The notes beneath the pieces were generated by a model. It did not search any database, had not been told where the DNA came from, and saw nothing but the letters and a program-made list of their open reading frames with translations. From Methylococcus capsulatus (GTDB lineage Bacteria; Pseudomonadota; Gammaproteobacteria; Methylococcales; Methylococcaceae), in the NCBI RefSeq assembly GCF_036864975.1, contig NZ_CP104311.1, forward strand, positions 660,001-724,000: a DNA stretch of 64,000 nucleotides, in the 5' to 3' direction. This document shows positions 44,428 to 49,639 of the stretch, piece after piece. The position numbers and the translations under genes were made by a program. The first letter of the stretch is position 1; every line of letters starts with the position of its first letter.

Positions 44428-44614
44428 AGTATTCCCTGTAACGCTCGAAGCATGCTGGGTTACTCTTTGAGCCTAATCTAAAACCCCGGGACTTCCGGGT
44501 GTTCGATGTGCGCAAGTCCGCTCCGGGCGGAAAGCCTGATTCGGCATCCTCTGGTCCCACCTGAACCGTTTGGTTCAAGGGCGAAAGCATGCTACGGCGC
44601 AAACGGGGAATACT
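44428..44614 (+). ncRNA. ssrS: 6S RNA
   Basis: The 187-base stretch between zapA and fau has the 6S RNA layout. AGTATTCCC at the 5' end pairs with GGGAATACT at the 3' end to close the molecule. The 3' half carries the conserved ACCTGAACC...TTGGTTCAAGG hairpin and a GCATGCTACGGCGC stretch that pairs back with GCATGCTGG near the 5' side. 6S RNA mimics an open promoter, binds the sigma-70 holoenzyme in stationary phase and serves as template for product RNAs. TAAGAT at 44415-44420 is a fitting -10 box. Confidence 0.93.
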
Positions 44615-44632
44615 CTTGACTGCCCGACTTCC

Positions 44633-45235
44633 ATGACCACGCCTGCCGATATCCGGACCCGCATCCGTGAGTGGCGACGTGCCCAGTCTCCTGCCGATGT
44701 CCACCGTAACAGCCTATTGATAGCCGGCCATTGCATCGGCTCGGGCTGGCTCGACAGCGCTGCCCGGATAGCAGCCTATTTGCCCAATGATGGCGAAGTC
44801 GATACGACGGCGCTGTTCAAGTATCTCCGCGAGCGCGGCCGCACCGCTTTCCTCCCGATTCTGCGGCAAGGCATGCTCTGGTTCGGCCCCTGTGCCGGCC
44901 CGGCGGCATTGCATCCCAACCGCTACGGCATTCCCGAACCCCCTATCGACGGCGAGACGGTCACTGACGCCAAGGAGCTCGATCTCGTGTTCGTGCCCCT
45001 GGTGGCGTTCGATCCGCGAGGTCACCGCCTTGGCATGGGCGGCGGATACTACGACCGCACCTTCGCATTCCGCCTCGATAAACCCACCCCCGCCGCCCCA
45101 CGCCTGATCGGCCTCGCTTTCGAAGGCCAGAAGGTCGAGCGGCTGGAGGCCCAACCCTGGGACGTCCCGCTCGATGCCGCAGTCACCGAAGCGGGCATCT
45201 ACCGCTTCCCTGGGCATCCGCCCACTTCCCTTTGA
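44633..45235 (+). CDS. fau: 5-formyltetrahydrofolate cyclo-ligase family protein
   Basis: A 200-residue enzyme that converts 5-formyl-tetrahydrofolate to methenyl-tetrahydrofolate using ATP. The signature VPLVAFDPRGHRLGMGGGYY then DRTF is complete, and IAAYLPNDGEVDT forms the substrate side. It is the E. coli YgfA (Fau) equivalent and sits 19 bases after the 6S RNA, which in E. coli is co-transcribed with it. The folate role suits C1 metabolism in this organism. Confidence 0.94.
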   Translation: MTTPADIRTRIREWRRAQSPADVHRNSLLIAGHCIGSGWLDSAARIAAYLPNDGEVDTTALFKYLRERGRTAFLPILRQGMLWFGPCAGPAALHPNRYGIPEPPIDGETVTDAKELDLVFVPLVAFDPRGHRLGMGGGYYDRTFAFRLDKPTPAAPRLIGLAFEGQKVERLEAQPWDVPLDAAVTEAGIYRFPGHPPTSL

Positions 45236-45322
45236 GCCATGCTGGAAAATTGCCGGAAGGCGGAGTATTTTTCCTATGCGGCAGGCCGATCGATCATTGC
45301 CGACCCTCATGGAGCGCTGTCT

Positions 45323-45976
45323 ATGTCTACCCGCCCGAACATCCGCAACAGCTCTTTGCACGACGGCAGGATGGAAGTCCTGGTCCATATCGTCGATGAC
45401 CATGCGACGGTGCGCGATGCACTGAAAATCCTGGTCGAATCCGAAGGTCTGCCGGCGCGTTGCTTCGCCACCGGGCAGGACTTTCTGGATTACTGCACGT
45501 CCGACACCCGGGGCTGCATCGTCCTGGACCCGCAGCTTTCCGGCATCTCGGGCCTGGAACTGCAAACTGCATTGAGAGAAAAAGGTATACGTCTACCGTT
45601 TATTTTCATCAGCGGGAACAGCGACGTACCGGCTGTGGCGGAGGCCTTCCGGAGCGGGGCTTTCGATTTCATCGAAAAGCCGTTGGAAAATACGTGCCTC
45701 TTGAGCCGCCTCAAGCAAGCCATTGCGCTGGACTTGAGGACCTGCGAACACAGGCGTCGACAGGCGGAAGCCGCATCGCAGTATGCCCGCCTCAGCAAGC
45801 GGGAGAAGGAGGTGCTGCATTGCACCGTCAAGGGCTATTCGGCCAAAGACACAGCCAAATCCCTCGGCATCAGCCATCGTACCGTCGAAATCTACCGTGC
45901 CAACGTGATGAGGAAAATGCACGCCGAAACTCTGGCTGACCTGGTGCGGATAGCTCTCCTGCTCGAAACCGATTAA
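45323..45976 (+). CDS. Orphan FixJ/NarL-type response regulator
   Basis: A 217-residue two-domain regulator. The receiver domain has the acidic pair in HIVDDHATVRDALKIL, the phosphorylated Asp in GCIVLDPQLSGISGLE, FIFISGNSDVP and FIEKPL with the conserved Lys. A LuxR-type helix-turn-helix follows (LSKREKEVLHCTVKGYSAKD and HRTVEIYRANVMRKM). The layout is FixJ-like. ATG 45323 has a GGAG box 9 bases upstream; ATG 45371 is an alternative that starts at the receiver. No sensor kinase is in the window, so the partner is unlinked. Confidence 0.88.
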   Translation: MSTRPNIRNSSLHDGRMEVLVHIVDDHATVRDALKILVESEGLPARCFATGQDFLDYCTSDTRGCIVLDPQLSGISGLELQTALREKGIRLPFIFISGNSDVPAVAEAFRSGAFDFIEKPLENTCLLSRLKQAIALDLRTCEHRRRQAEAASQYARLSKREKEVLHCTVKGYSAKDTAKSLGISHRTVEIYRANVMRKMHAETLADLVRIALLLETD

Positions 45977-45980
45977 GCCC

Positions 45981-46211
45981 TCAGTCGGGTGTCGGAATCG
46001 AAAGCTTCTCCTGCATCGCCAGCACTTCCTTCTCGGCCTCCAGCCAGTCTTCCAGCTCGCTGCCTCCTACGAAACCGCGCTTTTCGGCCCGCAAATACGC
46101 TGCCTCCGCGATCAGCGCATGCATCATGTCGGGATCGGGCGGCGGCGGCACGGTCTCCGGCTCCTCGCAGGAAACGGGTTTGATGGGTCGCGATAATACG
46201 GTTGCTGCCAT
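45981..46211 (-). CDS. DUF2934 protein
   Basis: A 76-residue protein. The DUF2934 core is HALIAEAAYLRAEKRGFVGG then SELEDWLEAEKEVLAM, a short helical motif of unknown role that often occurs near stress-related small genes. The first 28 residues are Pro-rich. It converges with the response regulator and leaves only 4 bases between the two stops. Confidence 0.85.
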   Translation of the reverse strand: MAATVLSRPIKPVSCEEPETVPPPPDPDMMHALIAEAAYLRAEKRGFVGGSELEDWLEAEKEVLAMQEKLSIPTPD

Positions 46212-46263
46212 GATAGCTCACCTCTTCAGGGTCAGAAAAAATTTCCTCCTCGCTTCCTCCTTG

Positions 46264-47442
46264 TCACAGCCTTCCGGCCAGTTCTCCCGGCCCCCAAGGG
46301 CCGGGCTCCTCAATCAGGGCACGAGCGGCCTCCACCCGATCCCAGACGTTCCATAGCAGTACGCCACGCACCCGCCCCTGATCCAGGTAGTAGACCACCC
46401 CTTTGTGATAAGGCTCGGACCAGTCTTCCACGGTCTCCAGCCTCGAATCCAGCTCCCCTACTGCTTCGTAGCCGAGGTCGAACAGATCGGAATAAAAATA
46501 GGGAAGATGCCGGTAGGGTGTCGCCTCACCGGCCATGTTGCGCCCGGCCAGCCGTCCCATGGTGCGGGCGTTGTCCTCGTGCTCCACGTGCATCCGGCGC
46601 CCCAGCACCGGGCTGTAAAAAGACGCAACATCGCCGGCGGCATAGACGTCGGCGTGGCCCGTCTGCAGAAATTCGTTCACGATGATGCCATGCTCCACTG
46701 GGAGCCCGGCCGCTTCGGCTAGCCGAGTCTCGGGCTCGATCCCGATGCCGGCGACGACGCCGTCCACCACGAGGACTTCTTCACCGGTCTCCCCGAGCGC
46801 AAGCCGGATCTCATCGCCCTCCCGAACCAGACCGGTGACCGCCCGGCCGCTCAGTAGCTCGACACCCTGGTCCCGGTAATAGTCATTGAGAAACTGGCAA
46901 AGGTCAGCCGGAAACACTCGGCCGCCAATGCATGCTTCCGGGAAGATCATCACGACATCCTTGCCGATCGACGCCAGGGCGGCCGCAATCTCCGAACCGA
47001 TGAAGCCGCCACCGATGATGGCGAACTTCCGCCGCTTCTCGGTCAGTGTTCGCAGCCGGAGATAATCGTCGATGGTACGGAAATACAGGATATCCTCGCT
47101 TCCGAACGAGAATCGACGCGGCCGGCCGCCGGTCGCCAGCAGCAGCTTCTCGAACCGGTAAACCGTGCCTTCGTCGTCGGCCACAGATTTTCCGGCCAGG
47201 TCGACTTGGGTCACAGTCCGACCCAGAAATGCACTGACCCCACAGGTTTCGGTGCCATACCACAGTTGGTCGAAGGACTTGCCGAGCCAGAGCCCCTTGG
47301 ACAGCAGGGGACGCTTATAGGGAAAATGCGGTTCCGCGCCAATGAGACCGATCGAGCCCTGCGGATCGAGCTCGCGGATGCCCCGGATCGCCGCATCCGC
47401 CGTCATTCCGCCGCCGACGACCAGGTATTTGTAGCTGTGCAT
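46264..47442 (-). CDS. FAD-dependent pyridine nucleotide-disulfide oxidoreductase family protein
   Basis: A 392-residue flavoprotein of the ferredoxin-reductase/AIF type. FAD site: YLVVGGGMTADAAIRGIREL. NAD site: KFAIIGGGFIGSEIAAALAS. The second FAD motif is ADVYAAGDVASFYSPVLGRR, followed by HEDNARTMGRLAGRNMAGE. There is no CxxC redox disulfide, so it fits rubredoxin or ferredoxin reductases or AIF-like oxidoreductases. The partner is not evident. It lies 33 bases after the DUF5335-like gene in the same direction. Confidence 0.88.
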   Translation of the reverse strand: MHSYKYLVVGGGMTADAAIRGIRELDPQGSIGLIGAEPHFPYKRPLLSKGLWLGKSFDQLWYGTETCGVSAFLGRTVTQVDLAGKSVADDEGTVYRFEKLLLATGGRPRRFSFGSEDILYFRTIDDYLRLRTLTEKRRKFAIIGGGFIGSEIAAALASIGKDVVMIFPEACIGGRVFPADLCQFLNDYYRDQGVELLSGRAVTGLVREGDEIRLALGETGEEVLVVDGVVAGIGIEPETRLAEAAGLPVEHGIIVNEFLQTGHADVYAAGDVASFYSPVLGRRMHVEHEDNARTMGRLAGRNMAGEATPYRHLPYFYSDLFDLGYEAVGELDSRLETVEDWSEPYHKGVVYYLDQGRVRGVLLWNVWDRVEAARALIEEPGPWGPGELAGRL

Positions 47443-47474
47443 GGCCGGTCTCCTTCCTCCGCAGCCGAAAAAAG

Positions 47475-47879
47475 TCAGAACCAAGGTGCAAAAAGTCCAT
47501 CGAGGCTATCCGGCGAAGCCGGCGCGCGGAACCTCAGTATCATCGCGCCATGGCCGGCGCTGTCGATACGCAGGCCCGCATGGATGCCTTCCCCGGCCTC
47601 CAGCACACCGATCGCCGCCACTTCCGCGATCGATTGAGTGATCTGCAACGCTCCTTCCCCCAGTAACAGCGACAGGCTGCCGTCCTTCGGCTCGAAGCAC
47701 AAGCTCCGGAATCGCACGTCGCGCACGATGCAACGCTCCTCCGCGACCTCGGCCACATCACGCTCCGCTGCCGCCGGTTTGTCCCTGATACTGGTTGTCA
47801 CCAACCACCCGCGGTGCTGCCGGCTGAACGCCTCGCAGAACCCGACCCAATCGGCAGGAGCGATAGGTCTGGTGTTCAT
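47475..47879 (-). CDS. DUF5335-like protein
   Basis: A 134-residue soluble protein: RPIAPADWVGFCEAFSRQHR then GWLVTTSIRD at the start, and DSAGHGAMILRFRAPASPD near the end. The Trp-rich start and the ending resemble DUF5335 proteins of unknown function; I am moderately sure. It has no signal peptide. It lies between the FAD oxidoreductase gene and a secreted-protein gene, all in the same direction, so a shared transcript is likely. Confidence 0.6.
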   Translation of the reverse strand: MNTRPIAPADWVGFCEAFSRQHRGWLVTTSIRDKPAAAERDVAEVAEERCIVRDVRFRSLCFEPKDGSLSLLLGEGALQITQSIAEVAAIGVLEAGEGIHAGLRIDSAGHGAMILRFRAPASPDSLDGLFAPWF

Positions 47880-47900
47880 GTCTTCGACAGACTGGAGAGG

Positions 47901-48344
47901 CTAATTCGTGCAGCGGACCTTCAGGGCGCTGACCTGGTCATGGAGACCGTACTCACCGAGGTGATGCACCTTGTGCCCGGCGGTAAAAGTCGCAACCTGG
48001 CTGCGATAATTCTCGTCCTTGCCGCCCCAGCTCCGGATTTCCTGTTCATGGTAAACCGGTCCGGAGGGAAGAGCGAAGTTTTCGTTCCCGTAGACACTCA
48101 CCTCCGCCGCCGGACCAACCTCCAGACTTTCGATCACGTCGTTCCAGTCGGCACCCTCGAGATCCTTCAGGCTTGCCATCTCCACCGGCCCGAACACTCT
48201 GACCTTGGCCCCTGTATAGTCCGGCCCCCTGTAAATGTCCACCCAGCAGTCGCCGGAACGGGATGCCGCCTGAGCCATGGAGCCCACCAACGCCCCCACG
48301 CACACTACCAGCCCGACAGGCATGACCGATGTCACTTTCTTCAT
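47901..48344 (-). CDS. Secreted beta/gamma-crystallin-like protein
   Basis: A 147-residue protein with a clear signal peptide (MKKVTSVMPVGLVVCVGALV then GSMAQAA). The mature part contains CWVDIYRGPDYTGAKVRVFG and SVYGNENFALPSG, which look like the Greek-key strands of beta/gamma-crystallin domains, and two cysteines (CWVD and KVRCTN) that may form a disulfide. Such domains can bind calcium. Function here is unknown. It starts at ATG 48344. Confidence 0.55.
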   Translation of the reverse strand: MKKVTSVMPVGLVVCVGALVGSMAQAASRSGDCWVDIYRGPDYTGAKVRVFGPVEMASLKDLEGADWNDVIESLEVGPAAEVSVYGNENFALPSGPVYHEQEIRSWGGKDENYRSQVATFTAGHKVHHLGEYGLHDQVSALKVRCTN

Positions 48345-48380
48345 ATGTCCTCCTTGCCGCCGGAATGCCGGCCAGCCGTT

Positions 48381-48887
48381 TCAGGGGAATGCCGGAATCG
48401 TCGGCTCGGTGCCCTCGAATTCGGCTTCCGGATGATGTTTCTGAACCCGTTGATGAATCTCTTCCACCTGCTCGCGCGGCACGTCCACCATGAGCAGAAG
48501 CTCACCTTTTTCTACCGCGCTTTGATAATTCTTGAGCCGGGAATTCTCGACGTCCAGTCCTATCATGCCGGACAGCCAGGAGCCGATGCCGGCACCGGCC
48601 AAAGCGATGGCAAGCACCGCTCCACCGCCGAGTACCATACCGGTCGGCAGGGCGACTGCGATCAGTCCTGCCAGGGTACCGGTGATACCCCCGATGGCCA
48701 AGCCGCGCTCCGTCGCGGGGATGAAGTCGCTCTTTTGAAACAAGGAGGCTTCGGGAAGATTGCCCAAGGGCGTTCCAGCCCTGGCCAGAATGTGAATGTG
48801 CCGCTCTTCGATCCGAGCAAGAAGCAGTTCATCGACGATCTTGCGCGCCAACTCCACGGACGGGACCAGGAAATAGATGCGCTTCAT
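48381..48887 (-). CDS. DUF1269-like membrane-associated protein
   Basis: A 168-residue protein. An N-terminal alpha/beta segment (RIYFLVPSVELARKIVDELL, HIHILARAG) is followed by a Gly/Ala-rich hydrophobic hairpin (LAIGGITGTLAGLIAVALPT and GGAVLAIALAGAGIGSWLSG) and a C-terminal segment with LLLMVDVPREQVEEIHQRVQ. This ferredoxin-like/glycine-hairpin layout is common in stress-linked bacterial proteins annotated DUF1269. Its start is only 12 bases past the fae stop, so the two are almost certainly co-transcribed. Confidence 0.65.
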   Translation of the reverse strand: MKRIYFLVPSVELARKIVDELLLARIEERHIHILARAGTPLGNLPEASLFQKSDFIPATERGLAIGGITGTLAGLIAVALPTGMVLGGGAVLAIALAGAGIGSWLSGMIGLDVENSRLKNYQSAVEKGELLLMVDVPREQVEEIHQRVQKHHPEAEFEGTEPTIPAFP

Positions 48888-48899
48888 GGCGACCCTTCG

Positions 48900-49418
48900 T
48901 CAGTCATGGGCCGCAAGGGGATGGTGAACGACGTCCTCCTGCGCGATGACCTCGTCGATGCCCGGCTTGCCTTCCACCGCCCGGGCGATCGCCAGCTTGG
49001 TCGCCTGGTAGTTCCAGTCCTGGATTTTGGCGTTGTCCTTGGCGTCCCAATGGATGAACACGCCCACGCAAATGAATACCTGGTCGGCCTCGGCCTTCGG
49101 GATGACACCTTCCTTGACCGAATCCACCACTGCCTTGGCAACACCGCGCTCCGCCGGCCCGAACATTTGAGTCGCTTGCTTTTCGTTCTTGATTTCCACC
49201 TTGTTGAACATGACGGTGGCGGGCTTCGCCATCAGATTGGGCGCAACCAGAGCGAGCAGGGCGTTGTCACCGCGCTTCTGATTGGTGAGGGCGGTGCAGA
49301 ATGCAACTTCCGCGGCACTGCCGCGTGGTCCCATAATGAGATCGATATGCGCCAGTTCGTTGCCCTCGCCGACCAGAGCCTCACCCACCAGGACCCGATC
49401 AATCTTCACACCGTTCAT
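48900..49418 (-). CDS. fae: Formaldehyde-activating enzyme
   Basis: A 172-residue Fae that speeds condensation of formaldehyde with tetrahydromethanopterin, the entry to the H4MPT oxidation and detoxification route. The catalytic histidine lies in [17 protein letters not shown], and [31 protein letters not shown] and [13 protein letters not shown] follow the family throughout. An AGGAG box precedes ATG 49418. The leader contains a long inverted repeat (49448-49502). No other H4MPT gene is in the window; downstream genes are of unknown function. Confidence 0.97.
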
Positions 49419-49447
49419 CTTCGGTTTCTCCTGTATGTCTGCCGGGG

Positions 49448-49502
49448 GGACTGACCTTGGGCCCGACGAGCCGCGGCATCAGCCGTCAGTCCTCTTTATC
49501 GC
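49448..49502 (-). promoter_or_regulatory. Stable hairpin in the fae leader
   Basis: GGACTGAC at 49448-49455 and GTCAGTCC at 49495-49502 are perfect complements enclosing 39 bases that can fold further (GC-rich GGC/GCC pairs). The structure would sit in the 5' untranslated region of fae, about 20 bases before the ribosome site. It could stabilise the message or respond to a signal. On the plus strand it is followed by TCTTTAT, but no gene there needs a terminator. Confidence 0.55.
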
Positions 49503-49639
49503 TTTTAACCCCGACACCATCCCGGCGCCAATACGAGCCGCTACCTAAGTAGTTCTACGTAGGCCGCGGCGCATGGCCTGCCCGGATGCGGCGCTGCGGC
49601 GCCGGCGGGCTGGTCTGCACCGACGTCGAAGGCCGCCGC

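Follow-up and report, generated by a model that had tools for sequence, protein, structure and literature searches.

A conserved stress-type gene unit of Methylococcus with a candidate FixJ-type operator and a diverged formaldehyde-activating enzyme

The window analysed here is a 64,000-nucleotide stretch of the Methylococcus capsulatus genome (G000, a single contig of 3.43 Mb; the window is G000:C1:660001-724000). It carries a second copy of fae, the gene for formaldehyde-activating enzyme (Fae), at the head of six minus-strand genes that run from fae (49418) to a DUF2934 gene (45981) with gaps of 12, 36, 21, 32 and 52 bases (Table 1). The order, coordinates, short gaps and common strand given for these genes in the initial annotation, including the position of the DUF1269-like gene 12 bases after fae, are borne out by the open reading frames (ORFs) of the window. 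That annotation also placed an orphan response regulator at the end of the cluster. This gene does adjoin the DUF2934 gene, its stop side lying 4 bases past the DUF2934 stop, but it is on the opposite (plus) strand, where it is convergent with the six genes and follows fthC. Upstream of fae is an 18-bp imperfect palindrome resembling the sites bound by FixJ. As far as sequence can indicate, the locus appears to be an operon of the stress type that includes a diverged Fae and has its own candidate regulator; that the response is specific to formaldehyde is conjecture.

Table 1. Features of the locus (window positions, except where a locus handle is given)
Feature	Position	Strand	Remarks
Candidate FixJ-type operator, 18-bp imperfect palindrome	49545..49562	-	CTACGTAG AA CTACTTAG on minus strand; ~135 bases before fae
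Longer 22-base match around the 18-bp box	49541-49562		
Type-2 formaldehyde-activating enzyme, second fae copy	48900..49418	-	PF08714 229.9 bits; TIGR03126 236.8 bits (cut-off 118.05); own clade
DUF1269-like protein	48381..48887	-	PF06897 E 0.0045, 17.7 bits (gathering score 26.9); 12-base gap to fae
Betagamma-crystallin-like protein, secreted-looking	47901..48344	-	Crystall_3 sub-threshold, E 0.00095, 19.7 bits (gathering score 27.3); gap 36
DUF5335-like protein	47475..47879	-	PF17269 E 0.0029, 17.8 bits (gathering score 27); gap 21
AIF-like FAD/NAD(P)H oxidoreductase	46264..47442	-	Pyr_redox_2 172.4 bits; AIF_C (PF14721) 71.7 bits; gap 32
DUF2934 protein	45981..46211	-	PF11154 52 bits (gathering score 22); gap 52
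FixJ-family response regulator	45239..45976	+	NF006900 188.8 bits (cut-off 255); convergent with operon
fthC, 5-formyltetrahydrofolate cyclo-ligase (context)	44633..45235	+	PF01812 135.2 bits; same strand as response regulator, upstream
6S RNA (context)	44430..44613	+	Rfam RF00013 74.3 bits
Ankyrin-repeat ORF	L083:3343-3840; same place in L085, L086, L087		Pfam tested for L083 only

The hint of shared regulation in the initial annotation is supported by this one conserved candidate operator, which heads the unit in all six genomes sampled from the genus: G000, G010 (M. capsulatus Texas), G011, G012, G013 and G014. Close variants of CTACGTAG-NN-CTACTTAG upstream of fae are common to these genomes, with no mismatch in four, one in G011 and two in G014. 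Within the window the box has a single match, compared with 0.00 expected in shuffled sequences, and the half-sites occur only twice in 64 kb, both times inside the box. When up to two mismatches were allowed across the six genomes, no second site with zero or one mismatch was found; besides the box, sites with two mismatches were found once in G000, once in G012 and twice in G014. The pattern can be considered rare because a reversed-pattern control yields 10-17 matches per genome compared with 1-3 for the real one. The box is also retained in G010, whose fae is broken, and in G014, which lacks fae at the locus, and therefore belongs to the operon and not to fae. Passages of PMC4999443 describe FixJ sites as 18-bp imperfect palindromes and give GTAMGTAG as one of two consensus motifs obtained by systematic evolution of ligands by exponential enrichment (SELEX). 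The box resembles such sites and is thus a candidate FixJ-type operator, new here.

The convergent response regulator combines a receiver domain (PF00072) with a LuxR-type output domain (PF00196), and it aligns to FixJ (PDB 5xso) over 192 residues, through the output helix, with an E value of 6.5e-37. It falls short of the cut-off of the NCBI FixJ equivalog model NF006900, and is accordingly described as FixJ-like, not as FixJ. At E 1e-25 its sequence matches only itself in G000, G010, G011 and G013, and there is a second such protein in G012 and G014. As the simplest pairing, we infer that this regulator acts at the box. Its true start is probably further in, at 45323 or 45371, because in the G014 orthologue a stop codon interrupts the frame ahead of the equivalent stretch; this sole TGA lies upstream of a later start codon, from which the frame runs open. 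On the plus strand, 6S RNA, fthC and the regulator gene follow one another (44430-45976), and the regulator may be co-transcribed with fthC.

Comparison within the genus took the assemblies of relatives as given, and a frameshift seen in a draft may therefore reflect an assembly error. All six genomes keep one gene order: argB ... crystallin, DUF5335 (in some a remnant), reductase, DUF2934, convergent regulator and fthC. Full reading frames of the crystallin, reductase and DUF2934 genes are present in every genome, as are the regulator and, beside it, fthC, and the DUF5335 gene is intact in four. For intact fae, ratios of nonsynonymous to synonymous substitution rates (dN/dS) relative to G000 are 0.04-0.06, the lowest of the unit. 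Corresponding values are 0.10-0.145 for the reductase, 0.18-0.21 for DUF5335, 0.12-0.26 for the crystallin and 0.13-0.29 for DUF2934, with 0.077 for DUF1269 between G000 and G010 and 0.056-0.083 for an argB control in three genomes. The intact genes are under purifying selection, and this, together with the order kept in six of six genomes, confirms that the unit is real and not a chance arrangement. An ORF for an ankyrin-repeat protein lies between argB and the box in four of the six genomes, all but G000 and G011.

Fae does not define the unit, because fae is intact in only four of the six genomes (G000, G011, G012 and G013) and the DUF1269 gene in only two. The two genes decay independently inside the genus, and the idea of Fae as the defining partner was rejected on these grounds. 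A unit led or defined by Fae, as originally envisaged, thus gives way to one in which box, crystallin, reductase, DUF2934 and regulator persist with fae broken or missing. On these sequence comparisons, the unit is real and Fae is an optional member.

The window copy of fae (fae2) nevertheless belongs to a distinctive group. The main copy of the same genome (794975, locus L103) is 86 kb away, 67% identical, and near the tetrahydromethanopterin genes mch (TIGR03120) and a beta-RFAP synthase family gene (TIGR00144). The product of fae2 passes the curated Fae equivalog model TIGR03126. Genes at least 79% identical to fae2, termed type 2, are found in 31 of 251 genomes of the order, and the remaining fae copies, among the matches listed, are at most 71% identical (type 1). 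Type 2 is split from type 1 by a branch with support of 93/81 in a tree of 51 rows, three distant homologues included, and of 100/100 in a second tree of 55 rows that includes a Methylovirgula plasmid copy. In addition, 12 alignment columns give a complete or nearly complete separation of 31 type-2 and 23 type-1 rows. The trees and alignment show a separate, diverged clade with near-fixed diagnostic residues, which is new here. Given these near-fixed differences between the types, condensation of formaldehyde with tetrahydromethanopterin by type-2 Fae is a putative activity.

The plasmid copy, on pHY1 of the alphaproteobacterium Methylovirgula sp. HY1 (L302:12001-12519), is type-2-like at 79.5% identity and adjoins hydrogenase-4-like and F0F1 ATP synthase gene sets. 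It carries the commonest type-2 residue at 10 of the 12 diagnostic columns, and its place in the tree is unsure because its branch is long. A motif common to the upstream regions of all type-2 fae genes was also considered and rejected: the most widespread 7-mers, present in six of 13 genera, are of the ribosome-binding type, and no word longer than 7 is common to more than five of the 13 genera.

Linkage beyond the genus was examined for DUF1269, DUF2934 and AIF-like reductase genes within 5 kb of fae in the 251 genomes of the order sample. With genera labelled g and the window's genus as g1, type-2 fae is found in 13 genera, or 12 without g1. DUF1269 is within this distance in g1, g25 and g44, the reductase in g1, g22 and g40, and DUF2934 in g1 and g25. 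Among the matches listed, none of 35 type-1 positions (drawn from 28 of 33 genomes and assigned by an identity of at most 71%, with distant homologues at 30-37% left out) has any of the three families within 5 kb; two DUF2934 matches lie about 9.6 kb from type-1 fae (G108, G145), beyond this limit. Outside the genus, linkage is seen in 4 of 12 genera (three if g22 and g40, which share an arrangement, are counted once), compared with 0.12-0.39 expected. The chance probability is 9e-6 to 0.007 depending on the counting method, or 0.0007-0.007 for the most conservative, figures that assume random placement and independent genera. A first count had dropped most DUF1269 matches below ~100 bits and kept fragments in G011, G012 and G063, and the recount with all DUF1269 matches weakens the statistic. 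The co-occurrence in other genera that the initial annotation proposed to look for is therefore present above chance, and these gene positions show a recurrent linkage of the type-2 clade to the tested families.

A reductase match at E <=1e-90 is found in 25 of the 251 genomes (three matches, in G137, G164 and G001, are partial), 17 of which also carry type-2 fae; the hypergeometric figure for this overlap ignores phylogeny and was not taken as proof. Among the best 80 of 531 reductase loci in named genomes, the fetched flanks of three contain fae: those of Texas, Methylomicrobium wino1 and a gammaproteobacterial metagenome-assembled genome. Between the reductase and type-2 fae of Methylomicrobium wino1 there is a gene for a macro-domain protein (L268:9328-9819), seen also at L122:9259-9750; in G172, no macro-domain ORF was called in this gap.

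Among the loci looked at, the complete set of genes was seen only in the window's genus. In G063, a genome from another family, one row (L267:1-6678) comprises a PAS histidine kinase, a FixJ-like response regulator, rhodanese, type-2 fae, an FKBP_N-domain protein, DUF2934, a small protein and a DUF1269 match that is a 67-residue fragment at the contig end. The regulator of this row scores 189.7 bits with NF006900 and is 38% identical to that of the window. In g12, a DUF5335 gene is ~4.5 kb and a FixJ-like regulator ~7.6 kb from type-2 fae. Other neighbours of type-2 fae, picked by eye and carrying no statistic, include aconitase (g12, g40 and g44), a ferritin-like protein, Hsp20, CBS, a small metal-binding protein and a flavodoxin-like reductase. 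In G020, from another genus, a crystallin-like gene (40%) lies beside a DUF1269 remnant (L107:3985-4676), with no fae in the 18-kb stretch.

The family names first given to the products hold for Fae, the reductase and DUF2934, which pass their Pfam cut-offs, but the DUF1269, Crystall_3 and DUF5335 matches score below theirs. The flavoprotein had been described as rubredoxin- or ferredoxin-reductase-like. This assignment was rejected because AIF is closer: the protein passes both AIF_C and Pyr_redox_2, as expected of an AIF-like oxidoreductase, and its best PDB chain is human AIF (5fmh, E 3.6e-62). For the crystallin-like protein, whose signal peptide was judged by eye, a low-confidence model (mean predicted local distance difference test score, or pLDDT, of 59) gives six Foldseek PDB matches at E <=0.001. 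All are crystallin-type by title, counting two of spherulin 3a that we presume to be of this type, and the top match is the bacterial betagamma-crystallin Nitrollin (E 3e-7). The model thus lends weak structural support to a crystallin fold. A model of the DUF5335-like protein was discarded (pLDDT 45).

We consider it possible, with a probability of roughly 0.42, that the locus is a stress operon of the FixJ type that has taken in a diverged Fae, transcribed as a single unit under the response regulator. This reading is favoured because the box is unique and present in six of six genomes, the regulator is FixJ-like, the gaps are short, the genes are under selection, type-2 fae is recurrently linked and the G063 row exists. 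We infer the pairing of regulator and box, the single transcript and every physiological role. The convergent regulator or a close paralogue would be phosphorylated by a kinase and would then bind the palindrome ~135 bases before fae, giving rise to one transcript for fae2, DUF1269, crystallin, DUF5335, AIF-like reductase and DUF2934. Presumably, the crystallin would stabilise the cell surface and the AIF-like enzyme would deal with NAD(P)H or the redox balance, and type-2 Fae might turn formaldehyde into methylene-tetrahydromethanopterin at times when growth slows down along with the main pathway. An undescribed stress response linked to Fae, as first proposed, thus keeps part of its ground: the recurrent type-2 linkage, the conserved operator and the adjacent FixJ-like regulator (also in G063) favour it, but fae is not its defining gene.

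Several findings weigh against this interpretation. The promoter scan found no sigma-70-like promoter at the box. In G014 the box is conserved and its flanks are not, so that homology in this genome is based on the box and its position. Exact matches to TAMGTANNNNTACKTA among 291 loci are found only in those of the genus. A looser scan of 27 loci, which covered eight of the 12 type-2 genera outside g1 as well as G014 and loci with the reductase, DUF1269 or DUF5335, found no site with three or fewer mismatches near type-2 fae or the reductase, and at four or fewer mismatches it gave 18 matches compared with 33 in a single shuffle that preserved base counts only. Sites with three mismatches outside the genus, at L108 (in G008, 837 bases ahead of the start of DUF1269) and L117 (G023, downstream of the DUF5335 gene), were taken as chance, and a box shared beyond the genus was rejected. 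The fae of Texas is broken and also lacks its middle part, that of G014 is missing at the locus, and DUF1269 is intact only in G000 and G010 and decayed in the other four. Eight of the 13 type-2 genera, all outside the window's genus, have none of the three tested families within 5 kb. Finally, no expression data for the operon were found in the literature; the main text of an M. capsulatus Bath RNA-seq paper does not mention 'fae'.

The most cautious rival, which is nearly as likely, is a general envelope or redox stress operon of crystallin, AIF-like reductase and DUF2934 under the same regulator, with fae2 and DUF1269 as dispensable cargo and no role for formaldehyde. Crystallin, reductase, DUF2934, regulator and box are kept in six of six genomes, compared with fae lost or broken in two and DUF1269 in four, and elsewhere type-2 fae sits in many unrelated places. 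However, fae2 is under the strongest constraint of all genes in the unit and stands at its head wherever it is intact, and two other genera also have it linked to the reductase, in a different order.

Going beyond the FixJ-type stress operon, the diverged clade might serve as a formaldehyde sink or sensor in times of stress, forming a module apart from EfgA and the main tetrahydromethanopterin cluster. In Methylococcus it would depend on a regulator-operator pair with essentially one target operon. Elsewhere in Methylococcales it would be joined to the AIF-like reductase, DUF1269 or DUF2934, and it would have reached an alphaproteobacterial plasmid. Taken as a whole, this extended proposal is unlikely.

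Less likely again is synteny by descent, in which the genes are neighbours without common regulation, kept together since the genus is young. The restriction of the full set to one genus and the retention of argB, fthC and other housekeeping flanks fit this explanation, but the order survives both the decay of single members and adjacent insertions, and the conserved box and the linkage beyond the genus are both above what chance would give.

Least probable of all is a second Fae for ordinary methanol metabolism, for instance one switched by lanthanides in the way of fae1-2 of Methylotuvimicrobium alcaliphilum. Passages of PMC11748545 give fae1-2 as raised with lanthanum by a log2 fold of 4.09, and PMC6277846 gives Fae2 of this species as 14-fold up with lanthanum. 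Against this rival, fae1-2 probably lies outside type 2: Methylomicrobium wino1 has two more close copies of fae that are type 1, apart from its type-2 copy, and three more genomes of that genus (G050, G107 and G130) have no copy above ~66%. M. alcaliphilum itself was not identified in the genome set, and transfer of the induction of fae1-2 to fae2 was rejected on the ground that fae1-2 is probably of another clade.

A search of open-licence papers found none on this cluster, the type-2 Fae clade or the operator. As PMC11748545 notes, several methylotrophs hold extra fae copies with no assigned job. The near-fixed clade residues, the stress-type neighbourhood and the single candidate operator provide a testable handle on such a copy: one regulator, one box and one operon. 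If formaldehyde is the signal, this would be a regulated formaldehyde defence of a methanotroph that does not rest on EfgA.

Among the closest known systems is the Fae of PDB 1y5y/1y60, which we take to be that of Methylobacterium extorquens. Homology with fae2 extends over 167 residues (E 2.9e-63), although fae2 is not adjacent to tetrahydromethanopterin genes. Read by eye from the alignment, 1y5y carries the residue of type 1 at Q47, D51, L57, E75, W135 and L168 and that of type 2 at V9 and C41. The extra fae genes of M. alcaliphilum (fae1-2, fae3) and Methyloversatilis (fae2, fae3) are likewise additional copies of unassigned role, and passages of PMC11748545 and PMC5023235 report single deletions without a growth defect. 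These copies differ in that a clade match with type 2 is not established and that the passages mention no stress cluster or operator, although type 2 could be one of the five Fae groups that PMC11748545 distinguishes. The EfgA response of Methylorubrum extorquens, as described in PMC7916467, is also a formaldehyde stress programme in a methylotroph, a role that is conjectural for the unit described here; that programme is centred on EfgA, and 'DUF' has no match in the main text of the paper. Compared with the FixJ regulons of Alphaproteobacteria, no kinase is seen beside the window's regulator, the target is a stress-type operon instead of fixK or nifA, and the operator is a candidate, but the two arrangements share a FixJ-family response regulator and an 18-bp imperfect palindrome upstream of the genes.

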